A DNA stretch of 64,000 nt from Arthrobacter alpinus. GTDB taxonomy: Bacteria; Actinomycetota; Actinomycetes; Actinomycetales; Micrococcaceae. Positions 48,447 to 64,000 of the stretch are shown one piece after another. The stretch covers positions 248,001 to 312,000 of the forward strand of contig NZ_CP012677.1 in NCBI RefSeq assembly GCF_001294625.1, written 5' to 3'. Positions within the stretch are counted from its first letter, which is position 1. Every line of letters starts with the position of its first letter. The translations under genes were made by a program, and so were the position numbers. A model generated the notes under the pieces. That model saw only the letters and a program-made list of their open reading frames with translations. It did not search any database and was not told the origin of the DNA.

Positions 48447-50162
48447 TCAGTCGTGTGAAGGGTGCAGTGGGCGGCGGGACTGGACGATGCGGAAGCGTCC
48501 GGCAATGAACGATTCGTCGGTAAGTGTGGCGGTGCCGGCGGGGTTGAGGCCGGAGACGTGAAAATCACTGAAAGCGGCGGAGAAGTTGATGGGCATGGCG
48601 CCGGTGACGTTGCTTGTCAGGGAAGCGCCCGCGGCAGCGAACGCTTCTTCTGCGTCGTCGATCAGGTCCTCATTGGTGGAGTACAGGAACGCGGTGATGG
48701 CCCCATGGAGGGCGGCATCCTCGGACGCGCGACGCAAGGCCGTGCGAGCATCAGGCACCCGGATAAGGAAGACAACCGGGCCGAAGCGCTCGTGTGTGAA
48801 GAGCTCCGCATCTTCGGGCCCGACCCGGACGATCAGCGGCGTGCTGGTCCGGGCCTCCGGATAGTTCGGGGCAGCCCAGCTGCGAGGAGTGCTGAGCACC
48901 TGCGCGCGGGAGCTCAACGCCTCGGTGAGCTTGCTGATCTCCTGGATCGTGCGGTCAGACTGGATGGTGCCCAGCACCGCTGCGGCACGCCGGGGGCTTT
49001 GGAGGATCGCTTCGACGGCGTCCACCAGAGCCTGTTCAACCCCCTCTGCGGTGAGTACGCCGTGGGGGGTTCCCACCCCGGACTCGGGAACGTAGATGTT
49101 CTGCGGGGCCGTGCACATCTGCGCGGAGAACAAGGTGATGGCGCTGGCAATTGCTCCGAACGCGGCGGAGGTGTCGGCGAACGAGTCCAGAACCACCGAG
49201 TTCAGGCCAGCAGTTTCGGTATATATGCGTGCCTGGCGGGCGTTCGCCTCTATCCAGGCACCGTAGCGCGGGGAACCGGTGAAGTCGACGACGCGCACCT
49301 GCGGGTCGGTGGCCAGCACCGAGGTGATCGGATCCGCGGCGGAGTCGACGGCAAGCTGCACAAGGTCAGCGTCGCAGCCAGCCTCGAGCAGGGTCTCGCG
49401 CATGATCTTCACAGCCAGCGCCATCTGCAGCACAGAGGAGGGGTGTGGTTTGACGATGACAGGGTTTCCCGCCATTAGGTTCGCGAAGATGGCCGGATAC
49501 ACGTTCCAGGCGGGGAAGCTTGCACAGGCCACGACCAGGGCAGGACCCATTGGCACGATGCGGTAGCTCTTCTGCAGTGAAATGAGCTCGGTGCCGAACA
49601 TCTGCTCCCAGGTGGCGTTGGCGGGTACCCGTGAGAGCATCTGCCAGGCGGTGGCAATGGCTTCCAGGCCCCGGTCCAACGCATTCGTGCCGCTGCCGGA
49701 CTGACCCATGCCCCGCCCCTGGCCTGTGGTGTGCATTGCAGCAAGGCCCAGCACCGGGTTCGCCGCAAACATCCGCTCAGTCATCTCGAGACAGACTCCG
49801 GCGCGCTCGCCGATGGTCCGGGCGCTCCAGCCGGTCAGTACCCCGCGTGCCCGTTCGATCAACGGGGCGGCCCCAGCTCGCGGATAGCTGACGCCGAGGG
49901 GGAGACGGGTCCACGGAGACACCTCGTCGGGCTGTGCCGTGATGGCCCCAACGTTGCCCGCGAGGTCCAGTGGAGTGTTAAGGATTGCGGAGAAGGCCGC
50001 ATCGGCATCAGCGCCTGTGGGGCCGGCCGGTTCGCGGCCGGTGAACCCGCTGAAGGCCGCCCGGGTGCTGACCGCTTGGACGGCGGCTCTCAACCGTGCC
50101 TCATGCATGACGGCGAGATGGGTAGGCGTGAACGCCAATTTTTGCTCGGGGGTGGTGGTCAT
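48447..50162 (-). CDS. PaaN-like aldehyde dehydrogenase
   Basis: A 571-residue ALDH of the PaaN type, ATG at 50162 after GAGGAG. The catalytic Cys lies in LFSAQMCTAPQNIYVPESG (about residue 346), the Glu in TETAGLNSVVLD, and the cofactor fold in NPVIVKPHPSSVLQMAL. The opening FAANPVLGLAAMHTTGQGRGM-like segment (read in parts) is typical of PaaN. No PaaABCDE or PaaG/Z ring-cleavage set is present, so it probably oxidises an aldehyde made by the adjacent carotenoid-oxygenase-like enzyme and not a phenylacetate intermediate. A 17-bp element lies 18 bases upstream of its start. Confidence 0.88.
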   Translation of the reverse strand: MTTTPEQKLAFTPTHLAVMHEARLRAAVQAVSTRAAFSGFTGREPAGPTGADADAAFSAILNTPLDLAGNVGAITAQPDEVSPWTRLPLGVSYPRAGAAPLIERARGVLTGWSARTIGERAGVCLEMTERMFAANPVLGLAAMHTTGQGRGMGQSGSGTNALDRGLEAIATAWQMLSRVPANATWEQMFGTELISLQKSYRIVPMGPALVVACASFPAWNVYPAIFANLMAGNPVIVKPHPSSVLQMALAVKIMRETLLEAGCDADLVQLAVDSAADPITSVLATDPQVRVVDFTGSPRYGAWIEANARQARIYTETAGLNSVVLDSFADTSAAFGAIASAITLFSAQMCTAPQNIYVPESGVGTPHGVLTAEGVEQALVDAVEAILQSPRRAAAVLGTIQSDRTIQEISKLTEALSSRAQVLSTPRSWAAPNYPEARTSTPLIVRVGPEDAELFTHERFGPVVFLIRVPDARTALRRASEDAALHGAITAFLYSTNEDLIDDAEEAFAAAGASLTSNVTGAMPINFSAAFSDFHVSGLNPAGTATLTDESFIAGRFRIVQSRRPLHPSHD

Positions 50163-50179
50163 TGAGAACTCCTCATTTC

Positions 50180-50196
50180 AGTACCATAAGCGAAGT
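50180..50196. promoter_or_regulatory. Cluster element, copy 1 (minus strand ACTTCGCTTATGGTACT)
   Basis: Matches the element at 51905-51921 in 15 of 17 bases, in inverse orientation, and lies directly upstream of the PaaN-like gene. Probably a binding site of a cluster regulator. Confidence 0.6.
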
Positions 50197-50238
50197 TAGG
50201 TGGATAGGCAAGGACTATTTTTACCTGTTCGGTTTATG

Positions 50239-50691
50239 TCATTTAGGCCAAAGGAGCAGCTGCGTGCAGCGAAAAAGTGCGATTCGTCCGCCGTCGTCGT
50301 CAAATACTTCCGCGTCCCACACCTGGGTACTGCGCCCGCCATGGACAAGCACCGCCACCGTGCGGACCGTCCCCGTGCGCGCGGTGCCCACATACGAGGT
50401 TTTCTGCTCCAAGGTGGTGAAGCCGGCGGCGCCGGACGGCAGTGACAGCCGGCATCCGAAGCCGGCGGCCGTGTCGGCCAAGGCCACCACGGAGGCGGCA
50501 TGCAGGTAGCCGTTGGGGGCCAGCACAGCCGGGACCACTGGCATTTCCGCCTCGATGCGCCCGTGTAAGGCACCGGTGATCTTGATGCCCAGGGTGCCAG
50601 GCAGCCTCCCGATCCCGAGCGCCGTCAGCTCGGCCGGGTCCGCTGCGCCGGGGTAAGCGGGCGTTGGGCGTGCCCCGTAATCCCTATTCAC
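50239..50691 (-). CDS. PaaI-type hotdog thioesterase
   Basis: A 150-residue hotdog-fold protein with GTG start at 50691 overlapping the thiolase stop (GTGA). The core LAPNGYLHAASVVALADTAAG (about residues 60-80; Asn and Asp/Thr in the PaaI positions) is followed by LSLPSGAAGFTTLEQKTSYVG. Such enzymes hydrolyse acyl-CoA dead ends, often aryl or branched, to release CoA. A proofreading role in the cluster is likely. Confidence 0.85.
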   Translation of the reverse strand: MNRDYGARPTPAYPGAADPAELTALGIGRLPGTLGIKITGALHGRIEAEMPVVPAVLAPNGYLHAASVVALADTAAGFGCRLSLPSGAAGFTTLEQKTSYVGTARTGTVRTVAVLVHGGRSTQVWDAEVFDDDGGRIALFRCTQLLLWPK

Positions 50692-51884
50692 TGCTCCACC
50701 TCGACGGCGACGGCGATGCCCTGCCCGACCCCTATGCACGCCGTCATGATGCCCAGGCCGCCGCCCCGTTCGCCCACGCCGTGGGCGCAATCGATCAGGG
50801 CTCGAGTGGCGGATGCCCCGAGTGGATGGCCGAGAGCTATGGCCCCGCCGTGTGGGTTGATCAGCACATGCTTGGGTGGGTCGAGTTTGGCCAGACAGGC
50901 CAGTACAACGGCAGCGAAGGCCTCGTTGATTTCCAAAACCGCGACGTCGGCCAGGGTCCGCCCAAGCTGGTGCAGGAGCTTGTTGACCGCTTCGACCGGG
51001 GCCAGGGCGAAACGGGAAGGGTCGACTCCAACGACGGCGGAGCCAACGATGCGCGCGATCGGCAAGACGCCGGATTCTGACACCCGCCTGCCCGAGACGA
51101 TCAGCGTCGCGGCGGCACCGTCGCTCAGTGGCGAGGAATTCCCCGCAGTGACCGCCCCGCCGGCGGAAAACGCGGACGCAAGCACGGACAGTGCCCAGGC
51201 GCTAGTGGTGGGGCGGATGCACTCGTCGCGAAGAATCCCGGCCGTGGGGATGACCCGGCCTGCGTGGAAGCCGGTGTTCCAGGCGGCATCGGCGAGCGTG
51301 TGGGATCGCAGTGCCCAGGCATCCTGGCCTGCACGGCCAATTCCAAGCTCCTGGGCAATCAATTCGGCCGATCGCCCCAGGGTTTCCACCCAGGGCCCGG
51401 GAAATTTCGGGTTGACCATCCGCCAGCCGAGGGCCGTCGGCACCAGTTCCAGCTGCGTCGGCAGCCGGTCGTCGATGGGGGCGATCACCTGTGGGGCGCG
51501 GCTCATCCCCTCCACGCCGCCGGCGATCACGACGTCGGCATCCCCCGCCCGGATGGCACGCGCTGCCAGCACAATGGACTCCGCGCCTGATCCGCACAGG
51601 CGATTGACGGTTGTTGCGGGTGTGGAGACCGGGAGACCGGCAAGCAGTGCCGCCATGCGGGCAACATTGCGGTTGTCTTCACCGGCACCGTTCGCGTCGC
51701 CAAGGATGACGTCATCGACGCCGGCCGCCACTAGGGTCGGATTCCGTGCCACGATCTCGCGCAGGGGAGCCGCGGCCAAGTCATCAACCCTTGTGCGGGA
51801 AAGCGACCCTCGATATCGCCCGAAGGGCGTGCGAACGCTGTCAACGAGATAAGCGTGATTCTGGTCCATGGACGTCTTTGTCAT
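50688..51884 (-). CDS. Acetyl-CoA acetyltransferase / 3-oxoadipyl-CoA-type thiolase
   Basis: A 398-residue classical thiolase with every catalytic element: VNRLCGSGAESIVLA (Cys about 97), EINEAFAAVVLA, NPHGGAIALGHPLGASATR and MTACIGVGQGIAV (second Cys). It would release acetyl-CoA or succinyl-CoA from a 3-oxoacyl-CoA. The start at 51884 has AGGT ahead. It is transcribed away from the ligase at 51926 across only 41 bases, which contain one copy of the 17-bp element. It differs from the two unusual thiolases at 42706 and 43973 by having both cysteines. Confidence 0.93.
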   Translation of the reverse strand: MTKTSMDQNHAYLVDSVRTPFGRYRGSLSRTRVDDLAAAPLREIVARNPTLVAAGVDDVILGDANGAGEDNRNVARMAALLAGLPVSTPATTVNRLCGSGAESIVLAARAIRAGDADVVIAGGVEGMSRAPQVIAPIDDRLPTQLELVPTALGWRMVNPKFPGPWVETLGRSAELIAQELGIGRAGQDAWALRSHTLADAAWNTGFHAGRVIPTAGILRDECIRPTTSAWALSVLASAFSAGGAVTAGNSSPLSDGAAATLIVSGRRVSESGVLPIARIVGSAVVGVDPSRFALAPVEAVNKLLHQLGRTLADVAVLEINEAFAAVVLACLAKLDPPKHVLINPHGGAIALGHPLGASATRALIDCAHGVGERGGGLGIMTACIGVGQGIAVAVEVEQ

Positions 51885-51904
51885 AACCGTACCTTTCGCA
51901 TCAG

Positions 51905-51921
51905 ACTTCGTTTATAGTACT
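51905..51921. promoter_or_regulatory. Cluster element, copy 2 (ACTTCGTTTATAGTACT)
   Basis: Sits in the 41-base divergent gap between the thiolase (minus) and ligase (plus) genes, 4 bases before the ligase ATG. 15 of 17 bases match the element at 50180-50196. TATAGT also resembles a minus-10 box, so promoter and operator may overlap and the messages may be nearly leaderless. Confidence 0.6.
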
Positions 51922-51925
51922 CATT

Positions 51926-53509
51926 ATGACGATGGAAACGTTAGATGGGTTTAATGTGGTCGGTGATGTGCTCGACGCAGCCGCCCAGCGCTATGGTCAT
52001 CAGACGGCGGTGCAGGATGCCACGGGCCTGCTCACCTTTACCGAACTCCGCGACCGGTCCAGGCGTCTCGCCGACGCTTTGCTTCGGAGCGGGCTCCGTC
52101 CCGGCGACCGGGTGATCGAAGCCCTCCCGAACAGCTGTGACTTGCTGGTCAGCGAAATGGCGCTGGCGCTGGCGGGTCTGGTCCGGGTGCCATTGAACCC
52201 CCGCCTTGGTACCCGGGAATGGCGTGGCATTCGTGAAGACTGCGGTGCCCGAGGCCTCATTGCAGAGGACCAACTGGCAGGTGTTGACGGCGCCCGGATC
52301 CTTGAGAGCATCTCGTGCGAGATCTCGGTGCGAACGGATGGGGGAGGCCTGGCGGCCCTGATCGAGTCCGGATCCTGCGACACGGCCCTGCCGGCCGCCG
52401 CACCGGAGGATCTGCTCGGCCTGGCCTACTCGTCGGGAACGACCGGACTGCCGAAGGGCGCGCTGCGCACCCACCGAATGCGTCTGGCCGCCACGCACGC
52501 AATGCTGCACCATGTTATTGAACCCACCGGCGTGCCCGCAGCCTATTTACACGCGGGGCCCGCCATCCACACCAGCGGCCTATTTATCTTGCCAATGCTC
52601 GCCCTGGGCGTCAGGCAGGTCATGGCGCACCATCCACAGCCCGCCGAAATCACCCGAATAGTCGTTGCCGAAGGCATCACCCACCTGGCCCTGGTACCGA
52701 GCGTCATCGACGCGCTCACATATCTGCCCACCTCCGATCGCGCCTCCTTCGCCGGGGTGCGGATGCTGGCGTATGCCGGGGCCCCCATGCGGCCGGCCCA
52801 GACCCGGCGCTGCGCCGAACTGCTAACCGATCGCCTGGTGCAGTACTACGGACTGGTCGAGGCGATCCCTCCGCTCACCGTGCTCAACATCGATGACCAC
52901 GCCCGCGGCTTGGGAGAAGAGCCGTCCCTGCTCACCTCGGCCGGCCGGGTGGTATCGGAGGCGCGGATGGAGATTCTGGCGGACGACGGCGTCGGCGAGA
53001 TTGTGGTCAGCGGTGCCATGGTGGCACCAGGGTATTGGAACGCCGCCGAACGGGCCGACCTGGGCAAGTCGTTCAGGGCTGATGCCCTACTCACGGGCGA
53101 CGTGGGCCGGATCGTGGACGGATACTTGTATCTCACCGATCGCAAGAACAACATGTTGATCAGCGGCGGATACAACATCTATCCCGCCGAAATCGAAGCA
53201 GCCGTCGAATCATGTGAGGGCCTACGCGACGTCGTTGTGGTCGGTCTCGCTGATGAGCGCTGGGGGGAGCGAATCACCTTGGCCTATACGACAAAGTCCG
53301 GGCACGATCTAAACGACGGTCAGCAAGAAGAGCTCCGTGAGCGTTTAGCGGCCCTGACCCGGCACAAGCAACCGAAGGCGTGCCATTTCATGCCCGATTT
53401 CCCTCTCGGAGCCACCGGCAAGATCGACCGGAGATCCGTCGCGGCGCGACTTGCCGCCGTCGAACTTTCCCTCCAGCCCAACTGCTCCCGAAAGGACCCT
53501 ACCCCATGA
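51926..53509 (+). CDS. AMP-forming acyl-CoA ligase (second)
   Basis: A 527-residue adenylate-forming enzyme. ATP loop LAYSSGTTGLPKGALRTHR (about residues 172-190), LTGDVGRIVDGYLYLTDRK, NNMLISGGYNIYPAEIEA and catalytic Lys in GATGKIDRRSV. It is of the fatty/aryl acid ligase type and not close to the ligase at 45154. It overlaps the nitronate monooxygenase gene (ATGA at 53506-53509). With two ligases the cluster may activate two acids, for example the two halves of a cleaved alkene. Confidence 0.92.
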   Translation: MTMETLDGFNVVGDVLDAAAQRYGHQTAVQDATGLLTFTELRDRSRRLADALLRSGLRPGDRVIEALPNSCDLLVSEMALALAGLVRVPLNPRLGTREWRGIREDCGARGLIAEDQLAGVDGARILESISCEISVRTDGGGLAALIESGSCDTALPAAAPEDLLGLAYSSGTTGLPKGALRTHRMRLAATHAMLHHVIEPTGVPAAYLHAGPAIHTSGLFILPMLALGVRQVMAHHPQPAEITRIVVAEGITHLALVPSVIDALTYLPTSDRASFAGVRMLAYAGAPMRPAQTRRCAELLTDRLVQYYGLVEAIPPLTVLNIDDHARGLGEEPSLLTSAGRVVSEARMEILADDGVGEIVVSGAMVAPGYWNAAERADLGKSFRADALLTGDVGRIVDGYLYLTDRKNNMLISGGYNIYPAEIEAAVESCEGLRDVVVVGLADERWGERITLAYTTKSGHDLNDGQQEELRERLAALTRHKQPKACHFMPDFPLGATGKIDRRSVAARLAAVELSLQPNCSRKDPTP

Positions 53510-54450
53510 CCCCCTTGGAACTACTTGAGCGCCTGCGCATCCCGGTGATGGCAGCACCGATGTTTCTGGCATCCGGGCCCGAGCTCGTCATCGCGGCGAG
53601 CCGTGCCGGCATCATCGGCTCGTTCCCCACGCCGAACTGCCGCACGGCCGAGGAGCTCGATGCGTGGCTGACCCAGATCACCACAGCACTGGGCACCGGC
53701 GCCGACGCCCAGCCCTGGGCGCTGAATCTCATTACGCACTCGACGAACACACGCCTCGGTGCCGACCTGGAAATGGTTGAGAAGCACCGCCCGCCGATCG
53801 TTATCACTGCCCTCGGCTCGCCCCGGCCCGTGGTGGAGGTGGTGCATTCCTATGGTGGGATCGTGCTCGCAGACGTTGTTTCGATGAAGCTTGCCCGCAA
53901 GGCCGCAGACGCCGGGGCCGACGGGCTCGTGTGCGTATCTTCGGGCGCGGGCGGACATACCGGCCACCTATCGCCGCTGCCGTTCATCGCCGCCGTGCGT
54001 GAGCGCTTCGATGGCCTGGTGTGTGTGGGAGGTGGCATCGCAACCGGTGCAGGTATTGCTGGCGCCGTTGCTGCCGGGGCTGATCTGGTCTATATGGGCA
54101 CGCGCTTCCTCGCCACGAAGGAGAGCATCGCCTTGGAGGGTCACAAGAAGATGGTGGTCGACAGTGAGATAGATGACCTTGTTGTCTCTGCGGCCATCAC
54201 CGGCACGCCGGCATCCTGGTTGCGTGCTTCGCTAGAAGCCGTCGGCATCGATCCCTCCGCAACGGGCGCCACCTCACGGGACTACTCCATGGAGGCGTCC
54301 AACGTTCGACGTTGGAAGGACACCTGGGCTGCAGGTCAGGGGCTCAACAGCATTGACGCGATCGAGACCACAGCGGATATTGTCGATCGCTTGGTGGCCG
54401 AGTACGGCGCTGCGTGGGATCGAGTCGACAGGATTGCCACCACCCGCTGA
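53506..54450 (+). CDS. Nitronate monooxygenase-family FMN protein
   Basis: A 314-residue TIM-barrel FMN enzyme from the ATG at 53506 (MTPLELLERL). FMN/active-site phrases: PVMAAPMFLASGPELV, CVSSGAGGHTGHLSPLPF with the catalytic His, and VCVGGGIATGAGIAGAVAAGADLVYMGTRF (in parts). True nitronate oxidation is only one activity of the family; many members are 2-oxoacyl/enoyl reductases or unknown oxidoreductases in acyl-CoA clusters. Its place after a CoA ligase and before the regulator gene fits the latter. Confidence 0.88.
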   Translation: MTPLELLERLRIPVMAAPMFLASGPELVIAASRAGIIGSFPTPNCRTAEELDAWLTQITTALGTGADAQPWALNLITHSTNTRLGADLEMVEKHRPPIVITALGSPRPVVEVVHSYGGIVLADVVSMKLARKAADAGADGLVCVSSGAGGHTGHLSPLPFIAAVRERFDGLVCVGGGIATGAGIAGAVAAGADLVYMGTRFLATKESIALEGHKKMVVDSEIDDLVVSAAITGTPASWLRASLEAVGIDPSATGATSRDYSMEASNVRRWKDTWAAGQGLNSIDAIETTADIVDRLVAEYGAAWDRVDRIATTR

Positions 54451-54463
54451 CTATACTGGCAAG

Positions 54464-55402
54464 GTGTCAGTAACTATTCCGCCCGGTGGCAGTGCAATCG
54501 GGTCAGCACTGCTCGCGCTCGGGGACCGCTGGACACTGCTGATCCTCCAGCGGGCCTTCGTTCTCCACACCCGCCGCTTTAGCGACTGGCGTGCGCAGCT
54601 AGGCGTCAGCGACTCTACGCTGGCCGCACGGCTGCGTGATCTGGTCGCCGCCGAACTCCTCGTACGCGCACCTTACGATGACAACGGCCGTACCCGCGAA
54701 GAGTATCTGCTCACGCCGCGGGCGCTGGAGCTGTACAGCCTGTTCCTGGTGATCTGGGGTTGGGAGCAGGCCTCGATGCCAGGCGCCAAAGACGCGCCGC
54801 ATCTGATCCACGATAAATGCGGGCAGTCGATTCTTCCGCACCTGGGGTGTGGTGTCTGCGGGACCGCCCCGGTCACGGCGCGCGAGACCACCGCTGAGCG
54901 CGCTGAGCATGCCGAGTTCGCGAAGATCAGTGTGCCCAGGCTGCACCGTCGCGCCCAAGAGACGGGCACCCCGACGGATGCCATTTCCTATTTCCCGCAG
55001 ACGATGGGGATTCTCGGCGACCGCTGGAGTACAGCGATCCTTGCAGCATCCTTCATTGGCATCCGGCGTTTCAACGCTTTCAAGTCGGAGCTTGGCATTG
55101 CTCCGTCGATCCTCTCGGACCGGCTGCGACGCTTCGTCGGCGTCGGCGTGCTGCACGCTCCCAATGACGCGGGCGAGTACCGCCTCACCGCCAAGGGCAT
55201 GGGCTTCTTCCCAACCTTTGCCCTCATCGTGGACTGGGCTCAGCGATGGTATGCCGCTGCGCCCAGTCGTGAGCTGACCATCCGACACACCGCCTGCGGG
55301 GCGCCGCTGCACCCAGTCCTTTTCTGCTCACTGTGTGGTGAGCTGCTAGAGCGCACCACCGTCCACTTTGAGTTCTCACCGACCACAACGCAGAGAGTCT
55401 GA
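54464..55402 (+). CDS. Tandem HxlR-type regulator with two Cys motifs
   Basis: A 312-residue protein with two HxlR winged-helix domains in one chain. The first (about residues 10-105: LLALGDRWTLLILQRAFV, FSDWRAQLGVSDSTLAARL) and the second (about 170-260: MGILGDRWSTAILAASFIG, FNAFKSELGIAPSILSDRL) are each followed by a similar Cys motif, HDKCGQSILPHLGCGVCG and HTACGAPLHPVLFCSLCG. HxlR proteins normally have one domain and act as dimers; this one is a built-in dimer. The GTG at 54464 is chosen because TATACT lies 7 bases upstream with no ribosome site, suggesting a leaderless message. TACTG and CAGTA flank the start as an inverted pair. Confidence 0.85.
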   Translation: MSVTIPPGGSAIGSALLALGDRWTLLILQRAFVLHTRRFSDWRAQLGVSDSTLAARLRDLVAAELLVRAPYDDNGRTREEYLLTPRALELYSLFLVIWGWEQASMPGAKDAPHLIHDKCGQSILPHLGCGVCGTAPVTARETTAERAEHAEFAKISVPRLHRRAQETGTPTDAISYFPQTMGILGDRWSTAILAASFIGIRRFNAFKSELGIAPSILSDRLRRFVGVGVLHAPNDAGEYRLTAKGMGFFPTFALIVDWAQRWYAAAPSRELTIRHTACGAPLHPVLFCSLCGELLERTTVHFEFSPTTTQRV

Positions 55403-56140
55403 ACCGGGCCGTCGATCTGTCCTGGATTGTGCTGGTCCTCCCCATCGCCGACCCGGCCCGGGTGCTTGGCGATGTCTTCTTCGACGGCGTCACCACCTTG
55501 CTCGACGGCGACGGACTCACCGCCATGGTCTGAACCCCGGACCAGAACTGGTGGCGGACGCACACCAGCCAGCTGGGCACGTTCTGAAGTTTGTCCAGAT
55601 TGATGTTCAATGGCACGCGGGTTACCAGCGGTGTCCTTGTCAGTGCCTTCGCCTCGTGCCTGGGCCAGAACCTACGTGAGCTCGTCGGGAGGAGAATCCC
55701 CTAAATACGAGTAGCACCACGACCATCTCCACGGTGTTCATCATCATGGGTATCCTGTTGGCCGGTGTTGGCCGGTGTTGGCCGGTGTTGGGCCGGCATG
55801 CGGCAAATGCGGCGATTGACCACTTTCGTGGTGAGAGTGGCTCGCGGGAACGATTGGGAGTGGCCTAACGCTGTTCGTGATCGAATGATGGGTGTTTCAT
55901 GGGCGATCCCCATTACAGGGTGCGGAGTCAGATTGACCTCAACCGGCTCAGGCGGCAAACATCTGAGTTTTAGTACCATGCGTTGTCATGCATCATTGCA
56001 GCCAATAAAGGTCAAAAATAGCCAACAACAAAATGGAAACGGTAATCTAGTCGACAGCTGGTCAGGGGGAGGTCCCTGGTGCCGGATCATGGTGAGGTGT
56101 CATCGTGCGTTTTGGGTGACCGGAGGATCTCCATCTCTTG
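55403..56140. other. Gene-poor stretch with a tandem 10-bp repeat
   Basis: Directly after the HxlR stop a short frame reads NRAVDLSWIVLVLPIADPA then RVLGDVFFDGVTTLLDGDG and ends at about 55533. It looks like the hydrophobic end of a lost membrane protein but is not recognised. GCCGGTGTTG is repeated three times in tandem at 55761-55790, with partial units on both sides. From about 55980 the DNA is more AT-rich and contains ATGGAAACGGTAAT (near 56033), similar to the element at 56141. No complete gene is seen. Confidence 0.4.
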
Positions 56141-56141
56141 A

Positions 56142-56197
56142 TGGAAACGATTCCGAGATGCGTACTTTCTTCAGTTACCGCGATCGCGGTAACTGAA
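56142..56197. promoter_or_regulatory. Two operator-like palindromes ahead of a truncated lipoprotein gene
   Basis: TGGAAACGATTCCG (56142-56155) has the CG-centred form of LacI-type operators. Fifteen bases on, 56170-56197 is a perfect 28-bp palindrome; its left half is TTCAGTTACCGCGA and the right half its exact complement. Both lie about 90-140 bases upstream of the lipoprotein start at 56284. They look like the control region of an importer operon whose body has been lost. Confidence 0.55.
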
Positions 56198-56283
56198 ACG
56201 GGGGTCACATTCGAAACCTCATACTCTGATTGAACCCTCCCACTCGCGGGCTCCCCACCAAGATTGTATTCAAAGGCTGCACC

Positions 56284-56517
56284 ATGATTTCCAAACGTAG
56301 TGCTATGAAGATTGGTACGCTGCTCTGTGCCGTAATGGCTCTCTCCGCCTGCGGCGGTGCATCGAACTCGAAGGGTGCCGCGGAGTCCAGCGAACCAGTC
56401 ACCGGTGGTGAGCTTGTTGTCGCGTCTCTCCCATCGATGATCGACGGGTCTGACGCCTGTGGGTCAACAGGGAGTTGTGTCATGCAATGCCCACAAAGCG
56501 TCACAGTTCGGAAATGA
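56284..56517 (+). pseudogene. Truncated ABC-importer solute-binding lipoprotein (N-terminal fragment)
   Basis: Starts MISKRSAMKIGTLLCAVMAL with lipobox SACGG, then EPVTGGELVVASLPSMID, the opening of a peptide-type (family 5) binding protein, about 55 residues. After SMID the text (GSDACGSTGSCVMQ) is foreign, and the frame ends at 56517 inside the convergent VOC gene. A full protein would have some 550 residues, so a deletion removed more than nine tenths of it, at a join near 56450. The signal peptide may still be expressed but no transporter genes follow. Confidence 0.7.
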
Positions 56518-57385
56518 TGATCTTCTTCATGGTGAGCATGCGCTGGTAGGCGCCTGGGTACTTCATCAGTTCGCCCATGTTCTGGGGCACGATCTGCCAA
56601 CTCACGCCAAAACGGTCCACCAGCCAGCCACATTGTTCGGCTTCGGGTACCTCGGAAAGTTCCTCCCACAATTTGTCGATCTCATCCTGGCTCGCGCAGG
56701 AGACTTGCAAGGAGAGCCCTGGTGTGAAGGTGAAGTGGTGATCCGTGCCGCCGTCCATGGCGGAGAACCACTGGCTGGCGAGGTGGAACTCGGCGAAGAG
56801 GATGCCACCGGAGTCTCCTGGCTTAGGTACCACCATTTCGGTGCCCGAATCCGGGAGAAGGCCGGCGTAGAGGTCGATGGCCTGCTGGGCCTGGGCCACA
56901 GGGCCGGTGAACAGGAACTGTGGAATCAGCATCGGTCGTTGGTTTCCGGCCGGGTCGGCCAGCATGAGCTGCCAGTTCACCCCCAAACGGTCCTCGACCC
57001 AGCCGTACAGCTTGCTGTGCGGGTACTCGCCCAATGCCATGCGCACCTCGCCCCCATCTGCGAAGGCTTCCCACACGCTGTGGATGCAGGTGCGCGCCTC
57101 CTCTTCGCCGCCGTCGAACATCAGCGGATCCATGTTCAGGATGAACGACAGGGCAGGCGTTGGACGGAACTCGGTCCCGGCATTAATGAGGCGGATCTGG
57201 TAGCCGCCAACGCTCACATCAACCACCAGCGGTTTCCCTGCAAAATCGCGTTGGGAGTCCGGCAAGTCCTGCCCCGGATAGGACATGGTGACCTCAGCCG
57301 ACGTTTTCGGAAGCACGGCAGAATAGAATTCGCCGGCCTCCACCGCATTGCCCTGGCACCATACGTTGGGCACGATCCGTTGCAT
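56501..57385 (-). CDS. Two-domain VOC / PhnB-like protein
   Basis: A 294-residue protein, ATG at 57385 after CGAGGAGG, made of two similar vicinal-oxygen-chelate units of the PhnB / 3-demethylubiquinone-methyltransferase-like type. Unit 1 has VPNVWCQGNAVEAGEFYSAVLP and GWVEDRLGVNWQLML. Unit 2 has LFTGPVAQAQQAIDLYAGLLP and GWLVDRFGVSWQIVP. Each ends with the same G-W-x-x-D-R-x-G-V-x-W-Q phrase. Family members bind metals or small molecules; enzymatic roles are mostly unproven. Its 3' end overlaps the truncated lipoprotein frame. Confidence 0.88.
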   Translation of the reverse strand: MQRIVPNVWCQGNAVEAGEFYSAVLPKTSAEVTMSYPGQDLPDSQRDFAGKPLVVDVSVGGYQIRLINAGTEFRPTPALSFILNMDPLMFDGGEEEARTCIHSVWEAFADGGEVRMALGEYPHSKLYGWVEDRLGVNWQLMLADPAGNQRPMLIPQFLFTGPVAQAQQAIDLYAGLLPDSGTEMVVPKPGDSGGILFAEFHLASQWFSAMDGGTDHHFTFTPGLSLQVSCASQDEIDKLWEELSEVPEAEQCGWLVDRFGVSWQIVPQNMGELMKYPGAYQRMLTMKKIIISEL

Positions 57386-57919
57386 GATTCCTCCTCGCGA
57401 ACTATTTCAGCATGGCACGATCGTCAGGCGCCATCAATAGATGACGAATCGGAAATGTGCCCGCACCGGGGATATTCCACCGTCTAGACGCACAGGCCCA
57501 CAGCCGGACGAGGTTGAACTGGACAGCGCCAGGGGAGGGGCGCCGTCGTCCGCTTCCAAAAAACGGGTGCTGGCCAGGACGAACTTACCTCTGAATACAG
57601 AGCCTGGCTCACCCAACGAGGAACAATATAGCCCAGCGTAAAAAACTGATTGACAGTTATAGGAGCATCGCGTAGGGGGTAAGCGCCTTCGTGATCGCCC
57701 GACGTTGACTCATCGTAAGCTCCATGCCTCACAGTATCCCGCCAGCAACCACCAGCAGGAACGATGCGCCGCTACCTGGACACTACCAAATGATTCTTCG
57801 ATAGCAGCTAGGCGGGCATGTTTGCTGAGTAAATGCGGAAGTTCGCTTTCCACCGTGGGGTGTCGTACCGTGAGGAATAGCCCTATCAAGCCGTTGGGGA
57901 ACGGATAAGAGGAGAAATC
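57386..57919. other. 534-base intergenic region ahead of the surface-protein locus
   Basis: No gene was recognised on either strand. Short frames have Pro/Ser/Arg-rich shadow-like composition. The right part should hold the promoter of the five-gene locus, and AGAGGAG lies just before its first ATG at 57920. No obvious operator palindrome was found. Confidence 0.4.
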
Positions 57920-58465
57920 ATGAATAAGTTGGCCAAAGGTGCTATTGCCGCGGGTGCCGCAGGAATCTTGTTGCTCGGTGGTCTCGGAACGCTGGCTTTC
58001 TGGAACGACTCAACGGCCGTCAACGGTGGGAACGTGACCACTGGAACACTGGCCCTCAGTGATGCGGTATGTGACGGCGGGTGGGTATATGCGGTCGGCA
58101 ATGCCGGAGTAGGCGCCCCGGTAGGGCTGATTGTTCCGGGCGACACGATCTCCAAGGAATGCACGTTCGCGATCACTGCAACCGGTGACAACCTGGAAGC
58201 GGACCTCGTCATCCCTGCGGAGGTAACCTTCACTAGCAGTCCCGATGCCCCCACGCTCAATGCAACGGCCTCGGCGAGTTACACGACTGCTGGCGGTGTG
58301 ACTGGCGCTACCGTAACTTCTGCCAATGACGGGGACATTGTCACAGCCACTATCAAGGTTGTGTTTCCGTTCGGGGATGCCGCCCTTGTCAATACCAACG
58401 ACACGCAAGGGATCCTATCTACCTTGGACGACATCACCGTCTCGCTCGCCCAGACGGAGTCCTGA
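57920..58465 (+). CDS. Alternate-type (SipW) signal peptide protein, camelysin/TasA-like cargo 1
   Basis: A 181-residue secreted protein. The signal MNKLAKGAIAAGAAGILLLGG leads into LGTLAFWNDSTAV, the G-T-x-A-(Y/F)-(W/F)-x-D phrase of SipW-dependent proteins, then GGNVTTGTLALSDA, the start of the beta-rich mature part. A strong ribosome site precedes it. The family includes fibre-forming TasA and camelysin of bacilli. The directly following gene encodes a signal peptidase of the SipW type. A surface or extracellular-filament role is inferred from this pairing; self-assembly is unproven. Confidence 0.85.
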   Translation: MNKLAKGAIAAGAAGILLLGGLGTLAFWNDSTAVNGGNVTTGTLALSDAVCDGGWVYAVGNAGVGAPVGLIVPGDTISKECTFAITATGDNLEADLVIPAEVTFTSSPDAPTLNATASASYTTAGGVTGATVTSANDGDIVTATIKVVFPFGDAALVNTNDTQGILSTLDDITVSLAQTES

Positions 58466-58488
58466 TCTTTCGCATCGAGCGCTGAGTA

Positions 58489-59037
58489 ATGGTTGTCCGG
58501 TCCTTACTTCGCTGGTTCGGGCAAGTTGTTGCGTGGCTGCTGATCCTTTCGGTGGCAGCGAGCGTGGCGGTGGCGGTGGTAATCCCGAGGATCACTGGCG
58601 CAACACCGTACACGATTCTTACCGGATCGATGCAGCCGGAGTTGCCTCCCGGGACCTTGGTGGTGGTGAGACCGGTTGATGCTAACAAGATCAGCATCGG
58701 CTCGGTCATCACCTACCAACTCCAATCAGGCAAGGCTACCAACGTCACCCACCGTGTAGTGGCTCAAGGCTTCGACACCAAGGGCGGACTGCGTTTTCAG
58801 ACTCAGGGAGATGCCAACAACGTTCCTGACGAGAATTGGGTCAAACCAATTCAGATCAAAGGCGAAAAGTGGTACGCAGTTCCCTACCTAGGATACGTCA
58901 ACAACATACTCATCCGAGAGGAGAGACAGATGGCGGTATACATCGCGGCTGCGCTCCTTCTCGGGTATGCGGCATTTTCGTTCATCGGAGCCATCCGAGA
59001 TCGTGGAGGTCACCGCAGAACCTCGGCCGACTCTTGA
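58489..59037 (+). CDS. SipW-type (Ser/His, ER-like) signal peptidase I
   Basis: A 182-residue membrane peptidase. An N-terminal helix (WLLILSVAASVAVAVVIP) is followed by the nucleophile phrase TILTGSMQPELPPG (Ser47), then NVTHRVVAQG with His88 in place of the Lys of ordinary bacterial signal peptidases. A second helix (MAVYIAAALLLGYAAFSFIG) is near the end. This Ser/His form is the archaeal/eukaryotic-like branch to which SipW belongs, used for special cargo. It is flanked on both sides by cargo genes. The next gene begins with TTG overlapping its TGA. Confidence 0.9.
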   Translation: MVVRSLLRWFGQVVAWLLILSVAASVAVAVVIPRITGATPYTILTGSMQPELPPGTLVVVRPVDANKISIGSVITYQLQSGKATNVTHRVVAQGFDTKGGLRFQTQGDANNVPDENWVKPIQIKGEKWYAVPYLGYVNNILIREERQMAVYIAAALLLGYAAFSFIGAIRDRGGHRRTSADS

Positions 59038-59696
59038 GGCGCCGTTTCTGGAGTGTTTTGGTGTGTACCGCGGTCCTCTTCTGCCTGGTGGCGCCAGCCG
59101 CGTACGCAGCCGATGAGTTGCATGTCAGCTGGGACGGCGACGCTTGGTCAGAGCAGTTGAGTGAACCGCTGTTCGATCCCGCACTGCGCTGGGTTCCCGG
59201 CGACTTTGAAGTAAAAGTTTTCTATATCCGCAACCATGCCAAGGGTGGAGCGACTCTCACGATAGCGGTTACCACTACCGATCGTGATCACCTTCTGCGC
59301 TATGAGGACATCAGGCTCTCGGCGCGCGTCGCTTCAGGTGATTGGGTGGATTTGGAGCGCACGGAGCAGAACTTCCGGCTAAACAATGAAGCGCTGCATG
59401 CTGGTGAGGTACGTAAAGTAGAGGTGCGCGCTCATTTTGATTCGGACTCACCGAACCGCTCTCAAAACAAAGAACTGGCACTGAATTTTCGCGTGGTTCT
59501 TTCCGATGAACAAGTCGCAACCGAAGACCCTGAGGGGCCAGGAACTAATGACGAGGAATCCACTGGGCCTCTTCCGCAGACGGGAGCGTCAGACGTCCGC
59601 TGGTCAATCATTACTGCCGGAATCGCCATGGGTGTCGGCATTGCACTCCTAGGGATGCGTAAGCGAGAGGAGACCGAACATGAGAGATCACACTGA
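59034..59696 (+). CDS. LPQTG cell-wall-anchored protein of the SipW locus
   Basis: A 220-residue protein. TTG at 59034 is proposed as start because it overlaps the peptidase stop (TTGA) and gives a proper signal: LRRRFWSVLVCTAVLFCLVA then PAAYAADE. The mature part (HVSWDGDAWSEQL, VPGDFEVKVFYIRNHAKGG) resembles the beta-sandwich cargo of the family. The end has LPQTG at about residues 180-184, then SIITAGIAMGVGIALLG and RKREE, a normal sortase signal. No sortase gene is in the window. It may tether the fibres or cargo of the locus to the wall. The ATG of the next gene lies 17 bases inside it. Confidence 0.82.
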   Translation: MRRRFWSVLVCTAVLFCLVAPAAYAADELHVSWDGDAWSEQLSEPLFDPALRWVPGDFEVKVFYIRNHAKGGATLTIAVTTTDRDHLLRYEDIRLSARVASGDWVDLERTEQNFRLNNEALHAGEVRKVEVRAHFDSDSPNRSQNKELALNFRVVLSDEQVATEDPEGPGTNDEESTGPLPQTGASDVRWSIITAGIAMGVGIALLGMRKREETEHERSH

Positions 59697-60354
59697 ACCC
59701 CGTTTTGGCGGTTTTTGGCGGGGGTTGGCCTCACGCAAGGTTCGTGCTGTGCTCTGTCTCGGAATCTTCGCCGCCCCTGCAGCCGTGGGAACCATGGCCT
59801 ACTGGACCGATGAGGCCACCATAGAGTCCGGTACGTTCACTGCAGGCACATTGGACTTGACCGTGGGCGGCGCAGTGGAGGACAGCAACTACCTCCCAGG
59901 CCCCGGCGGCACACACGAATACTCCACTTTAACCATTGCGGATCTGCTCCCTGGCGAGAGCATTGCCCGCCCGTTCATCGTACGAAATTTCGGCACCACA
60001 AGATTCATCTATAACGGGTTTGTCCACACCACGAACAACGCCCTCGCTGCATCCGGCAACGAGGGTGGACTGCAGGTCGCAATCTATGCCGGCGGCTCGC
60101 CGACCAACGCTGGCACACAAGCAGCCGGGGATCGAAGTGGCAGCTGCCCCGGCGGGGACTTGCTCAAGAACCAGGAAGTTAGCACTTCAACCAATACAGT
60201 GGAACTTGCCCCTGCGGACATTCCCCTCGCCCCGGGCGCGACGCAGACTCACTGCGTCGTAGTCCTCCTCGACTTGGTGGCACCGAACGCGCTCCAAGGA
60301 GCGCGTACCCAACTGATAGTGGAGCTGGACGCCAAACAGATGGGGGCTCCATGA
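59680..60354 (+). CDS. Alternate-type (SipW) signal peptide protein, cargo 2
   Basis: A 224-residue protein with a Tat-less, Arg-rich start (RGLASRKVRAVLCLGIFAAP), then AAVGTMAYWTDEATIESGTF and TAGTLDLTVGG, the clearest SipW/camelysin phrase in the window. The mature domain has YSTLTIADLLPGESIARPF and four Cys-free strands, then SCPGGDLL and THCVVVLLDLVAPNAL with a possible disulphide. It overlaps both neighbours (59680-59696 and ATGA at 60351-60354), so the group is co-translated. Confidence 0.87.
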   Translation: MRDHTEPRFGGFWRGLASRKVRAVLCLGIFAAPAAVGTMAYWTDEATIESGTFTAGTLDLTVGGAVEDSNYLPGPGGTHEYSTLTIADLLPGESIARPFIVRNFGTTRFIYNGFVHTTNNALAASGNEGGLQVAIYAGGSPTNAGTQAAGDRSGSCPGGDLLKNQEVSTSTNTVELAPADIPLAPGATQTHCVVVLLDLVAPNALQGARTQLIVELDAKQMGAP

Positions 60355-61817
60355 CAACGCCAGAACCGACCATTCGTAAGACGGGCCGCCGAGCGGTTGA
60401 GGTACTCCTCTGGTGCGGTGCCGGTCTTGGTAGCTTGAGCATCATTGCCGCTCTCGCTGCGGTGATCTTTGGCATTGTGCCGTTGGTGTTCACCTCGGGC
60501 TCGATGTCACCAGAAGTACCAACAGGCTCCCTCGGCCTAGCTCGTACCGTGGCTGCCAGCGACCTCCGGGTCGGGGACGTCGTCAGCGTCACCGCATCCG
60601 ACAAGACTCGGGTCACGCATCGGGTTCTCGCCGTCGAGCAACAATCGGACATCGCTGCACTGACCCTCAAGGGTGACGCCAACCCTGGACCAGACCGAGA
60701 AACGTACGCCGTCACTGAGGCAGACCAGGTTTTCTTCACTGCGCCGTACCTCGGCCGGATTATCATGATCCTCACCAGTCCATGGGGGATGTTCGTTGGC
60801 GGTCTCACTGCTGCGGCACTTCTGCTATGGGCATTCCGTCGCCAGCCGTCGGCTGGCGACGACTCGGACTCCGGCTTAGAAGACGAGACTGCGAAAAAAC
60901 CGCCGGAAGCGCCCCCCGTGAAGTCCGGCTGGCACCGCGCGCACCAAAGGAAGGTCCGGATAAGGGCGACCGTGTTAGCCGTGGGCATCCCCGCCCTCCT
61001 GCTCACCACTGTGGCCTCCGGTACTTCCGCATATTTCACCGATACCGCCGAAGTGACGACGACGGGCTTCGTCGCGCACCGGGTGCTACAGCCCGGCCCC
61101 GCCACTTGCACAGCCAACGCGAATAGCATCACCGTTGGTACGACGCCCCTAGCTGATCCTCGCTATACCTACTGGGCCCGTGTCTACACCCCAGCTGGTG
61201 TCGCGATCTCTGACTACAAACAGATGACCGGTAATCCGGCCACGGCCAGATTAAACACATCCAATTTCACGCCGCCACTTGCCCTGAGAACAACCTACAC
61301 GGTTCGTATTCACTCCAGAGTCGGGGCCCCGGGGCCCACCGGGTCATCGGGGTGGGAATCACAGGTATTCCGGCGGGCAGAGTTCAGCACGACAGGTACG
61401 ACCCTCCAATGCGGCGCGGCCATCGTGCCTCCGAACATCGTGTTCACTCAGCCGACCAATGGCTTCACCGGAACCAAGGCGCAGCTACAGGCTCGGCTCG
61501 ACCGTGATTGCGATCGAATTGTTGGGGGTATCTGCGGAACAGCAATCGACCCGAATGGAACGGTTGTGTCCGTGGAGTACATCCTTCAGCGGACCAATAT
61601 TGGCACGTATTGCTATGTCCCAGGCGGCAACCCCAACGGATACCCTGCGGGTGGGTCATGCAGATACCGGAGTGCGGAACGAAACGGGGACACGTGGACG
61701 ATCCCCGGTAACCTCTTCGGCGGACTCATAGGTTGGAACTACACGCTCACCATCAAGGCGACAGACAACCACGGAGCCGTCACGGAGAAAGCGATCGAGT
61801 TCAGGGTGACTCCCTGA
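60351..61817 (+). CDS. Fusion of SipW-type signal peptidase and a SipW-type cargo domain
   Basis: A 488-residue protein. Residues 1-165 form a signal peptidase: first helix (about 17-47), nucleophile VFTSGSMSPEVPTGS (Ser51), TRVTHRVLAVE (His90) and a second helix (about 137-163). A charged linker rich in Asp/Glu/Pro follows. Around 202-230 is a new signal-like segment, RATVLAVGIPALLLTTVASG then TSAYFTDTAEVTTTG, the same G-T-x-A-Y-F-x-D phrase as the separate cargo proteins. The rest is an extracellular part with beta-rich, fibronectin-like text (YTYWARVYTPAGV) and several Cys. It could cut itself or its partners; the family norm is separate proteins. Confidence 0.85.
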   Translation: MTTPEPTIRKTGRRAVEVLLWCGAGLGSLSIIAALAAVIFGIVPLVFTSGSMSPEVPTGSLGLARTVAASDLRVGDVVSVTASDKTRVTHRVLAVEQQSDIAALTLKGDANPGPDRETYAVTEADQVFFTAPYLGRIIMILTSPWGMFVGGLTAAALLLWAFRRQPSAGDDSDSGLEDETAKKPPEAPPVKSGWHRAHQRKVRIRATVLAVGIPALLLTTVASGTSAYFTDTAEVTTTGFVAHRVLQPGPATCTANANSITVGTTPLADPRYTYWARVYTPAGVAISDYKQMTGNPATARLNTSNFTPPLALRTTYTVRIHSRVGAPGPTGSSGWESQVFRRAEFSTTGTTLQCGAAIVPPNIVFTQPTNGFTGTKAQLQARLDRDCDRIVGGICGTAIDPNGTVVSVEYILQRTNIGTYCYVPGGNPNGYPAGGSCRYRSAERNGDTWTIPGNLFGGLIGWNYTLTIKATDNHGAVTEKAIEFRVTP

Positions 61818-61955
61818 CGCTGGCCATTCCGAGCAATCGTATGCTGAGATCCATCGCCCCTCTCTAAGTTCCGGTTCCGTACTCCCCGGGTAAAGGACGC
61901 GAACTCCTGCACATCCGGGTCGACCGGCCCAAGCTCACCTGAAGTTACGTAGGTT

Positions 61956-61997
61956 AACACAGGAAGATCCCCGGATTTCCCGGGATCTTCCTGTGTT
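61956..61997 (+). terminator. Rho-independent terminator after the surface-protein locus
   Basis: Arms AACACAGGAAGATCCC (61956-61971) and GGGATCTTCCTGTGTT (61982-61997), 16 perfect pairs with a 10-base loop and a short T-run (GTTTGT) after it, 139 bases downstream of the last gene of the locus. The rest of 61818-62285 holds no recognised gene. Confidence 0.88.
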
Positions 61998-62285
61998 TGT
62001 GCTTGGGTGTCTGGCTACTTCCGGGTGCAGACGCAGGGTCTCAGCCATGACCCGTGCGAGTGTGGCCCGTCTTGCCTCAACATGCGTGAGCGGGGCATCA
62101 GCGTTCAGGTCACGCAGTTCCTCAGAAATTGTGGCCTGCGACTGCTACGACTCCTGTGCCGAGTAGCTCCAGATCGAAGTAGAGCATGCTGTGATCGCAA
62201 AGGAAGCCATCGATGCCAGTTCCACAGCGACAGCAACTCCGAACATGCGTGACGCGCTTCTCCGGCCCATCTGCGATGAGACGAC

Positions 62286-62460
62286 CTAGGCGCCGCTGAC
62301 AAACTCAGCCTGCCCTCCGCCGTACAACACGTCAATGTTGTACACATTGCCGCGGGCGGGCAGAACCACCGAGCAGGTAAAGCCGTCGTACGTACTTCCC
62401 GAGTACGCTGAAAAGCACAGATAACCGACAGGAGTGCGGGAAGGCCCAACCAACTTTGAG
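62286..62460 (-). pseudogene. C-terminal fragment of a secreted protein
   Basis: The frame reading RTPVGYLCFSAYSGSTYDGF then TCSVVLPARGNVYNIDVLYG and GGQAEFVSGA ends at the TAG at 62286-62288. Two cysteines and strand-like alternation suggest the end of an exported domain. It loses sense upstream where it meets the start of the AlkD-like pseudogene on the other strand. The family is not recognised. Confidence 0.35.
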
Positions 62461-63127
62461 CAGCACGACGGCGGCGCAGGTGTTGGCCGAGCTGGCTACC
62501 CTGGAAGACCCGAGGGCCCGCGCCATCAATGAGCGGCACGGCGACGACCACGGGGTGAACCTGGGCAAACTGCGCGCCATTGCGAAGCGGCTGAAGATGC
62601 AGCAGGAGATTGCCCGGGAACTGTGGGCCAGCGGCGACACCGCGGTACGGTTGGTGGCACTGCTGATCCGCCGCCCCAAGGACTTCGGCCGCGATGAGCT
62701 GGACGCCATGTTGCGTCAGGCCCGTCCCCAAAATACACGACTGGTTGGTTAACTACGTGCTGAAGAAGAGCCCGCATGCCCAGGAGCTGCGGGTGGCCTG
62801 GTTCACGGATCCGGACCCCGTGGTGGCCAGTGCCGCGTGGGCGCTGACAAGTGAACAGGTGGTTACGAATCCCGAAGGCCTAGACTTGCCGGGGCTGCTG
62901 GAGATCATCGAGGTACAGATGAAGGACGCCCCGGACCGCCTGCAATGGGCCATGAACAACTGCCCGGCCCCGATCGGGATCGAGCACCTCGAGCTCAGGA
63001 CCAGGCTCTGAGCATCGGGGAACGCCTGGAAGTCCTCAGGGACTACCCGACGCCGCCGAACTGCACCTCGCCGTTCGCACCCATCTGGATCACCGAGATG
63101 GTCCGGCGGAAGGGCGGGGCAAGCTAA
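62456..63127 (+). pseudogene. DNA alkylation repair (AlkD-like) protein, two frameshifts
   Basis: Three frames join into one HEAT-repeat protein: VLAELATLEDPRARAINERH and NLGKLRAIAKRL (from TTG 62456), then after a shift near 62733 KIHDWLVNYVLKKSPHAQEL and VAWFTDPDPVVASAAWALTS, then after a shift near 63005 LSIGERLEVLRDYPTPPNC and FAPIWITEMVRRKGG. This matches AlkD-like glycosylases, about 225 residues in full. Each break is a single base, so either the gene is freshly dead or the assembly has errors. Its intact form would excise alkylated purines from DNA. Confidence 0.7.
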
Positions 63128-63139
63128 GCGAACCGCCAG

Positions 63140-63322
63140 GTGGAGTTCTTGGCAGCCCCCTACACGCTGGTTGTCATGGCCGGAATCGCTTTCTCACAAC
63201 TTGCCCTGGTCGCCGTCTGGGTGTTCAGTCCATGGACCAGCGTGATGCTCGCCGTGGGCAGGGTCACGGTCTCCGGCACGGCATTCGTGCGCCTCATGCT
63301 GGTCCTGATGTACTGCGCCTAA
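63140..63322 (+). CDS. Small hydrophobic protein of unknown role
   Basis: A 60-residue frame with a GTG start, MEFLAAPYTLVVMAGIAFSQ then LALVAVWVFSPWTSVML and a second hydrophobic end VRLMLVLMYCA. It could be a two-helix membrane protein or a leftover piece of a larger one. No ribosome site is clear and no family is recognised. Its neighbours on both sides are pseudogenes, so a relic is at least as likely. Confidence 0.3.
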   Translation: MEFLAAPYTLVVMAGIAFSQLALVAVWVFSPWTSVMLAVGRVTVSGTAFVRLMLVLMYCA

Positions 63323-63328
63323 CCTTGC

Positions 63329-64000
63329 CTAGAGCAGTCCGAGCTGCGCAAAAGCCGCAGCCATGCCCGCCCGGCTCGGCGGTGGCGCCGTGCGGTCGAT
63401 CCCCAGAAACGCGATAGCAACGGCCACGCCGTCGGCCTTGCTGATGCCGCGCTGGAACAGTTCCCCGGAGTGCATACCCTCGGTTGCCATCGAATTGGCG
63501 ACGACGTCGATGTCCGGCCCGATCTCGCAGGCCAGGGCGGCGAGGGGAATCGGGGACTCGAAGACGGATGCCTTGGCGAAGCGCGGAAGCAACTTCCCCA
63601 GGGTGCGCAGCGGTCCCAGAATGCTTGAGGAGCCGCTCTGGTGTCTATCCGGTGACTCCTTGAAGTGTGCCTCGACGATGACACGCAGGCGATCCTGCGC
63701 GGCCGGGGGCGCATGGAGTTATTCCTGCGCCTCAAGGATGTACACGGCATGGTGGACGTTAAGGGCCGGCACGGTCCTGGCCGCCAGGTCTGCGGGGAAG
63801 CGGCGGTCAAGGAGGACTTCACCGGCCACCTCTACCTAGGCGCCAGCACTGGCGATTAGGCCGTCAAAGCCCGCCTCGAGGATGTGCTCGGGGAGCATCG
63901 ACACTGGCCGGCCGGTGCACAAGAAGACTTTGTGGCCGGCAGCACGTGCCGACCGGACAGCCCGTACATGGGCATCCGGGACAACCCCGTAGTCGGCGTA
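63329..64000 (-). pseudogene. HAD-family (IIB/Cof-type) phosphatase with two nonsense codons, N-terminus outside window
   Basis: One frame runs from the window edge to the stop at 63329: YADYGVVPDAHVRAVRSARA, AGHKVFLCTGRPVSMLPEHI, EAGFDGLIASAGA, then TAG at 63836-63838 where Tyr is usual (GAYVE), then GEVLLDRRFPADLAARTV and VYILEAQE, then TAA at 63719-63721, then LRVIVEAHFKESPD and, near the end, ISKADGVAVAIAFLGIDR. CTGRP and the SKADGVA phrase are typical of Cof-type HAD phosphatases. Two stops in otherwise good coding text mean a recently broken gene. Confidence 0.75.

Follow-up and report, generated by a model that had tools for sequence, protein, structure and literature searches.

The fused gene and its operon

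The window analysed here is a 64,000-nucleotide stretch of Arthrobacter alpinus DNA. Five genes on its forward strand form the operon listed in Table 1, and the last of them joins, in this order, a SipW-type signal peptidase, a linker, a third membrane segment that bears a SipW-type cut site, an FnIII-like domain and an Ig-like domain.

Table 1. Genes of the operon and parts of the fused protein, in window positions.
Feature	Position	Strand	Basis
SipW-exported protein 1, 181 aa	57920..58465	+	TIGR04089 159.2 bits (cut-off 60); TIGR04088 27.3 (cut-off 19)
Separate SipW-type signal peptidase, 182 aa	58489..59037	+	TIGR02228 86.7 bits (cut-off 51.85)
LPQTG-ended surface protein	59034..59696	+	Sequence; Pfam Gram_pos_anchor 17.4 bits, under cut-off 20
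SipW-exported protein 2, TasA/camelysin-related, 224 aa	59680..60354	+	TIGR04088 31.4 bits; Pfam Peptidase_M73 27.3 (cut-off 22.5)
Fused signal peptidase-cargo protein, 488 aa	60351..61817	+	One uninterrupted frame
Membrane helix 1, residues 8-40	60372..60470	+	AF2 model
Ser51, catalytic by homology	60501..60503	+	Invariant in alignments of 22 and 49
His90, catalytic by homology	60618..60620	+	Invariant in alignments of 22 and 49
Membrane helix 2, residues 144-161	60780..60833	+	AF2 model
Linker, residues 162-197, expected cytoplasmic	60834..60941	+	dN/dS, pLDDT, charge
Third membrane segment, putative cargo signal, residues 198-222	60942..61016	+	Hydropathy, AF2 model, profile
SipW-type cut motif T225-S-A227↓Y-F229-T-D231	61023..61043	+	Predicted cut between 61031 and 61032
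Predicted new N-terminus with donor-strand-like segment, residues 228-242	61032..61076	+	Mature-only profile
FnIII-like domain, residues 244-354	61080..61412	+	Fold in predicted model
Ig-like domain, residues 357-488	61419..61814	+	Fold in predicted model

The original prediction of a Ser51/His90 peptidase with two membrane helices was borne out: TIGR02228 matched residues 31-144 at 62 bits, over its cut-off of 51.85, and both helices are present in the AF2 model. With the Bacillus SipW equivalog NF046067 the protein scored 50.3 bits, under the cut-off of 190. Ser51 lies within SGSMSP (49-54), His90 within THRV (89-92), and GDAN is found at 108. This S, H and GDxN set is kept in 117 of 120 listed homologues, which were gathered without requiring those residues; the ORF finder used for the 70-protein alignment described below did demand them, so catalytic conservation in that alignment is partly circular. 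To our knowledge, the chains of known ER-type signal peptidases (SEC11, archaeal TIGR02228) stop shortly behind the peptidase, whereas the fused protein carries a substrate-type signal and further domains in the same chain.

Behind the peptidase, pLDDT falls below 50 at residues 177-196 of the AF2 model. A third hydrophobic segment follows, at 204-222 by hydropathy and as a helix at 198-217 in the model, where it has low confidence and no reliable placement; net positive charge precedes this segment in 67 of 70 fused proteins. Comparison with the orthologue in the same-genus genome G001, a single genome pair read as plain ratios, gave dN/dS values of 0.17 for the peptidase, 0.89 for the linker (residues 166-203), 0.14 for the third segment and site, and 0.30 and 0.16 for the two cargo domains. 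By these ratios the linker appears to drift while the frame, the signal and the cargo appear to be maintained. A frameshift or misassembly joining two genes, or absence of the join from relatives, had been named as observations that would speak against a fusion. Full-length relatives at 81, 79, 64 and 61% identity over 100% of the query, together with the same five genes in the same order in G001, make frameshift and misassembly unlikely, and the join is present in those relatives.

The separate peptidase of the operon falls inside a set of 68 separate peptidases on the tree described below. A profile of 28 orthologues of exported protein 2 matched TasA (5of1 and 8aur, E 1e-4) over profile positions 56-108 only, in the N-terminal part, and also matched AbpX of archaeal bundling pili (9sj2, E 0.004). 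We know of no fused peptidase in those pili. The LPQTG protein, which lies between the separate peptidase and exported protein 2 and has an ordinary-looking Sec signal, probably starts at a TTG overlapping the stop of the preceding gene; its sequence suggests a sortase-held wall partner. No tRNA gene was found at 50000-64000 and no promoter-like site at 57500-62300. The latter interval holds 8 terminator-like sites where 3.7 are expected, none of which was used as evidence.

The same genome has a second SipW operon at 674500-681500. It encodes a separate peptidase, two exported proteins bearing TIGR04088 signals, a 291-aa protein whose C-terminal part holds a membrane segment, and a free 336-aa protein that bears a signal and the stretch TAIANWNQ. 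This is the same kind of gene set minus the fusion, and the 336-aa protein gave no sequence match to the cargo.

The junction and its predicted cut site

After a hydrophobic segment with positive charge before it, the window protein reads T-x-A↓x-[FW]-x-D, which by likeness is a SipW-dependent signal. The SipW site of TasA, called predicted in PMC10269814, spans P3-P4' as TWA-AFND with an aromatic P2'. The register at the junction equals that of TasA, and a cut would therefore be expected after A227 (PMC10269814).

The second SipW-type signal, placed behind a linker in the original prediction, was recovered by profile. The public model TIGR04088 is weak here, scoring 14.5 bits at residues 215-238 under its cut-off of 19 and, at E 0.1, matching only 4 of the 49 relatives aligned. 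A second profile, made from 149 SipW-type signals in like operons that were picked by motif pattern from source loci that include the window, gave its best match to the window protein at 209-243 (17.6 bits, i-E 1e-5). At E up to 10 it matched 22 of 70 fused proteins, with the best match always within 5 residues of the junction and within 1 residue in 16 of them; the other 48 had no match, and two shuffled controls reached at most 2.1 bits.

Conservation was read from 70 aligned proteins, comprising 68 fused ORFs of 80 loci, the window protein and that of G001, all chosen regardless of the motif; L022 and the same-genus loci L015-L020 were left out. A227 (P1) is present in 70 of 70, D231 (P4') in 62, T225 in 59 and F or W at 229 (P2') in 49; in columns 205-224 the most frequent residue never exceeds 32 of 70. 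F and W are absent from P2' in 21 proteins, or in 18 if Tyr is counted as aromatic. Together with the profile matches and shuffles, this column conservation rules out a chance cut motif. The sites of the left-out same-genus loci are more decayed than the 70 aligned: the fused proteins of L015, L017 and L020 have TQAAW with no Asp, and those of L018 (STRAAM) and L019 (STEAAM) have neither the aromatic residue nor the Asp.

One alternative is that the cargo is never cut and serves as a platform, tethered to the membrane, for holding filament bases on the cell surface. No other anchor was seen in the chain, and both the 21 proteins lacking F or W at P2' and the five same-genus relatives lacking the P4' Asp would fit such a role. 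We nevertheless consider it quite improbable: the invariant P1 alanine, the P4' Asp and the dN/dS of 0.14 exceed what a plain anchor would need, and cargo proteins that exist separately in split relatives often retain T-x-A at the same place.

In a group of Gordonia, Tomitella and Rhodococcus loci, split and fused (L042, L046, L059, L063, L050 and L058), the P2' aromatic is gone while T-x-A and D are kept (TMANPTD, TLAAGQD), which suggests an altered cutting enzyme or specificity.

Relatives, split forms and history of the join

A search for the same join elsewhere had been proposed, and fused genes were found in other genomes. Among the 120 matches listed of 125 in the protein search, 116 show, behind the peptidase box, two membrane segments and a tail of at least 60 residues, and 102 carry A-x-[FW]-x-D within residues 151-280. 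A scan of named genomes, taking the best 80 of 130 relatives, gave 64 loci with at least one fused gene, 15 split or tail-less loci and one (L066) running off a contig end; the scan was seeded with fused-protein patterns, and its counts give no prevalence. Genera with fused genes include Nocardioides, Rhodococcus, Aeromicrobium, Cryobacterium, Frigoribacterium, Curtobacterium and Arthrobacter. Within the genus of the window, 8 of 23 genomes (G000, G001, G002, G005, G011, G012, G014 and G016) have a match extending past the peptidase into the tail, and close orthologues are present in G000 and G001 only. A phylum-wide draw matched the peptidase half in 51 of 246 genomes, and most listed frames were short. 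The fusion is real and a member of a conserved family; it seems to be frequent in some families and infrequent over the phylum as a whole. The relatives in the protein search and the named-genome scan rule out a one-off oddity. A plasmid origin was also rejected; the 9 plasmid records that matched cover 20-30% of the query.

Split loci encode a peptidase of about 200 residues and, behind it, often with overlapping gene ends, a protein that has a membrane segment at its N-terminus. ORFs downstream of short peptidases match fused tails in 14 of 16 cases (E at most 2e-6, the strongest 2.6e-74), so the cargo occurs as a stand-alone protein too, with an N-terminal membrane segment of its own. The downstream proteins of L103 and L104 give no such match, and L104, one of the 15 split loci, has no matching cargo.

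A quick tree of 168 peptidase domains, with few columns and rooted by separate SipW, parted separate SipW from the fused/split type (SH-aLRT 87); 6 rows fell on the side where they were not expected. Five rows first called separate were relabelled after the tree was seen and before fissions were counted: L066 as fused, and L070, L071, L083 and L100 as split, these four on the peptidase alone. With those labels the fused/split clade has fused as its root state and six changes to split, and we infer that the fused form is ancestral in the clade and that fission was repeated. The expectation that peptidase and substrate are normally separate thus fails for this subfamily, where, in the scanned loci, fusion is usual as well as apparently ancestral.

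Long SipW-like peptidases with a third segment and tail also occur outside the main clade. L122, L146, L149 and L150 form a divergent clade (support 99) with junctions such as HAAFSGT and HSAFAGT, and L180, a distant genome within the phylum, encodes a 473-aa peptidase whose junction reads SYAVFTDSKS, perhaps an independent fusion. The join may therefore have arisen more than once.

The cargo, the cutting enzyme and a possible filament initiator

The part after the predicted cut, residues 228-488, agrees with the extracellular domain of about 260 residues proposed originally. Its predicted mature start is YFTDTAEVTTTGF, and the family consensus AFTDTATATSGTFTA is near the exported neighbours' AWSDTATATGGTFTSGTLDL. 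A profile restricted to the mature part was placed at the junction in 32 of 70 fused proteins, compared with 0-4 of 70 in each of 20 shuffles, at low scores (best 9.2 bits; one shuffle reached 6.7 bits). The residues after the cut thus seem to resemble those of the exported neighbours and may form a donor-like segment. In TasA fibres N-terminal residues 28-38 are the donor strand, and TapA, a complete Ig fold, donates its N-terminus to start the fibre (PMC9674648, PMC10151520).

The tapA-sipW-tasA operon of Bacillus subtilis is alike in having a SipW-type peptidase and a TasA-related exported protein (PMC10151520, PMC9674648). Its minor partner TapA combines a complete Ig-type fold with an N-terminal donor segment, with which the FnIII-like and Ig-like folds of the predicted model and the statistical donor-like segment may be compared here. 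The B. subtilis peptidase and minor partner are separate proteins, and the tapA stop and the sipW start overlap (PMC10151520, PMC9674648); in the window the peptidase and the cargo are one chain, and the window operon has an additional separate SipW and an LPQTG protein. The donor-like N-terminus, the TapA precedent and the TasA-matching operon protein together lead us to read the cargo as a putative TapA-like initiator or cap.

Neither TIGR04089 nor Pfam M73 matched the fused protein or its cargo at E up to 1. Against solved chains the cargo gave 8 matches at E up to 1, TapA not among them, in a set that may not contain TapA. Tails vary in length and domain content, with FnIII/Ig here and Big_13 and LamG in other homologues, and some are Thr/Pro-rich, which can inflate similarity scores. 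FnIII and Ig folds are common, and with this variation they would suit a freed adhesin, or another secreted protein with no part in filament assembly, its operon position reflecting co-export only. We hold this to be rather unlikely, given the donor-like N-terminal segment and a SipW-exported gene directly upstream in 70 of 84 fused or split loci.

Which enzyme would cut is a separate matter. A separate SipW lies within 4.5 kb in 65 of the 84 loci, so the fused enzyme need not be the cutter. Among the remaining 19, at least four (L058, L072, L077 and L093) have a second family match nearby that the pattern missed. The operon's separate SipW could then cut the cargo, leaving other substrates to the fused peptidase and giving the fusion no role beyond fixing stoichiometry and place. 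The apparent repeated fission, which suggests that the join is dispensable, also fits, but we judge this arrangement unlikely, in view of Cryobacterium ruanii. In this draft assembly, which may be incomplete, no TIGR02228 match other than the fused enzyme (55.1 bits) exceeds the cut-off, the second one scoring 24.3, and both TIGR04088 preproteins of the genome are encoded directly upstream of it. A sole above-cut-off enzyme with adjacent preproteins argues that fused enzymes are active and may serve other substrates too.

The explanation we favour, at about an even chance, is that a membrane peptidase bears its own cargo and probably releases it by cutting, and that this cargo would start or cap a TasA-like filament as TapA does. 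The N-terminal half would be a SipW-type peptidase with two membrane helices and its Ser/His site outside, and the flexible cytoplasmic linker would lead to the third membrane segment, acting as the export signal of the C-terminal half. Cutting after A227 would most likely fall to the fused peptidase, either in cis or through a neighbouring copy, and the operon's separate SipW may help. Release would give the FnIII-Ig protein a new N-terminus resembling a TasA-type donor strand. Its own domains being complete, the freed protein would initiate or cap a filament of the two other exported proteins, as TapA does in Bacillus subtilis. The peptidase would remain in the membrane and may also process those two proteins.

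Of the functions first proposed, release of its own cargo combined with a minor filament subunit fits best, given the constrained site, the separate cargo in split relatives and a predicted new N-terminus that resembles that of TasA-type subunits; staying uncut is disfavoured. The decayed same-genus sites, and a junction no more constrained than the peptidase, weaken the favoured explanation. More tentatively, the protein could be a self-maturing peptidase: one substrate per chain would be cut in cis and one filament initiator delivered beside the enzyme, after which the tail-free enzyme would process the bulk subunits assembling there. If so, the fusion would set the number and place of filaments.

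Among the matches listed from open-access titles and abstract openings, we found no signal peptidase fused to its substrate and no TasA-type operon of Actinomycetota, which is weak evidence of absence, subscription papers and preprints lying mostly outside. Relatives with a source name in the protein search are annotated as signal peptidase or hypothetical protein. Such annotation hides the surface half, possibly a TasA-like filament initiator in Actinomycetota. If the enzyme does cut itself, it would offer, within one natural chain, an ER-type signal peptidase together with its substrate, a help in learning how these enzymes see aromatic P2' sites, and filament initiation would be tied to export at one spot.
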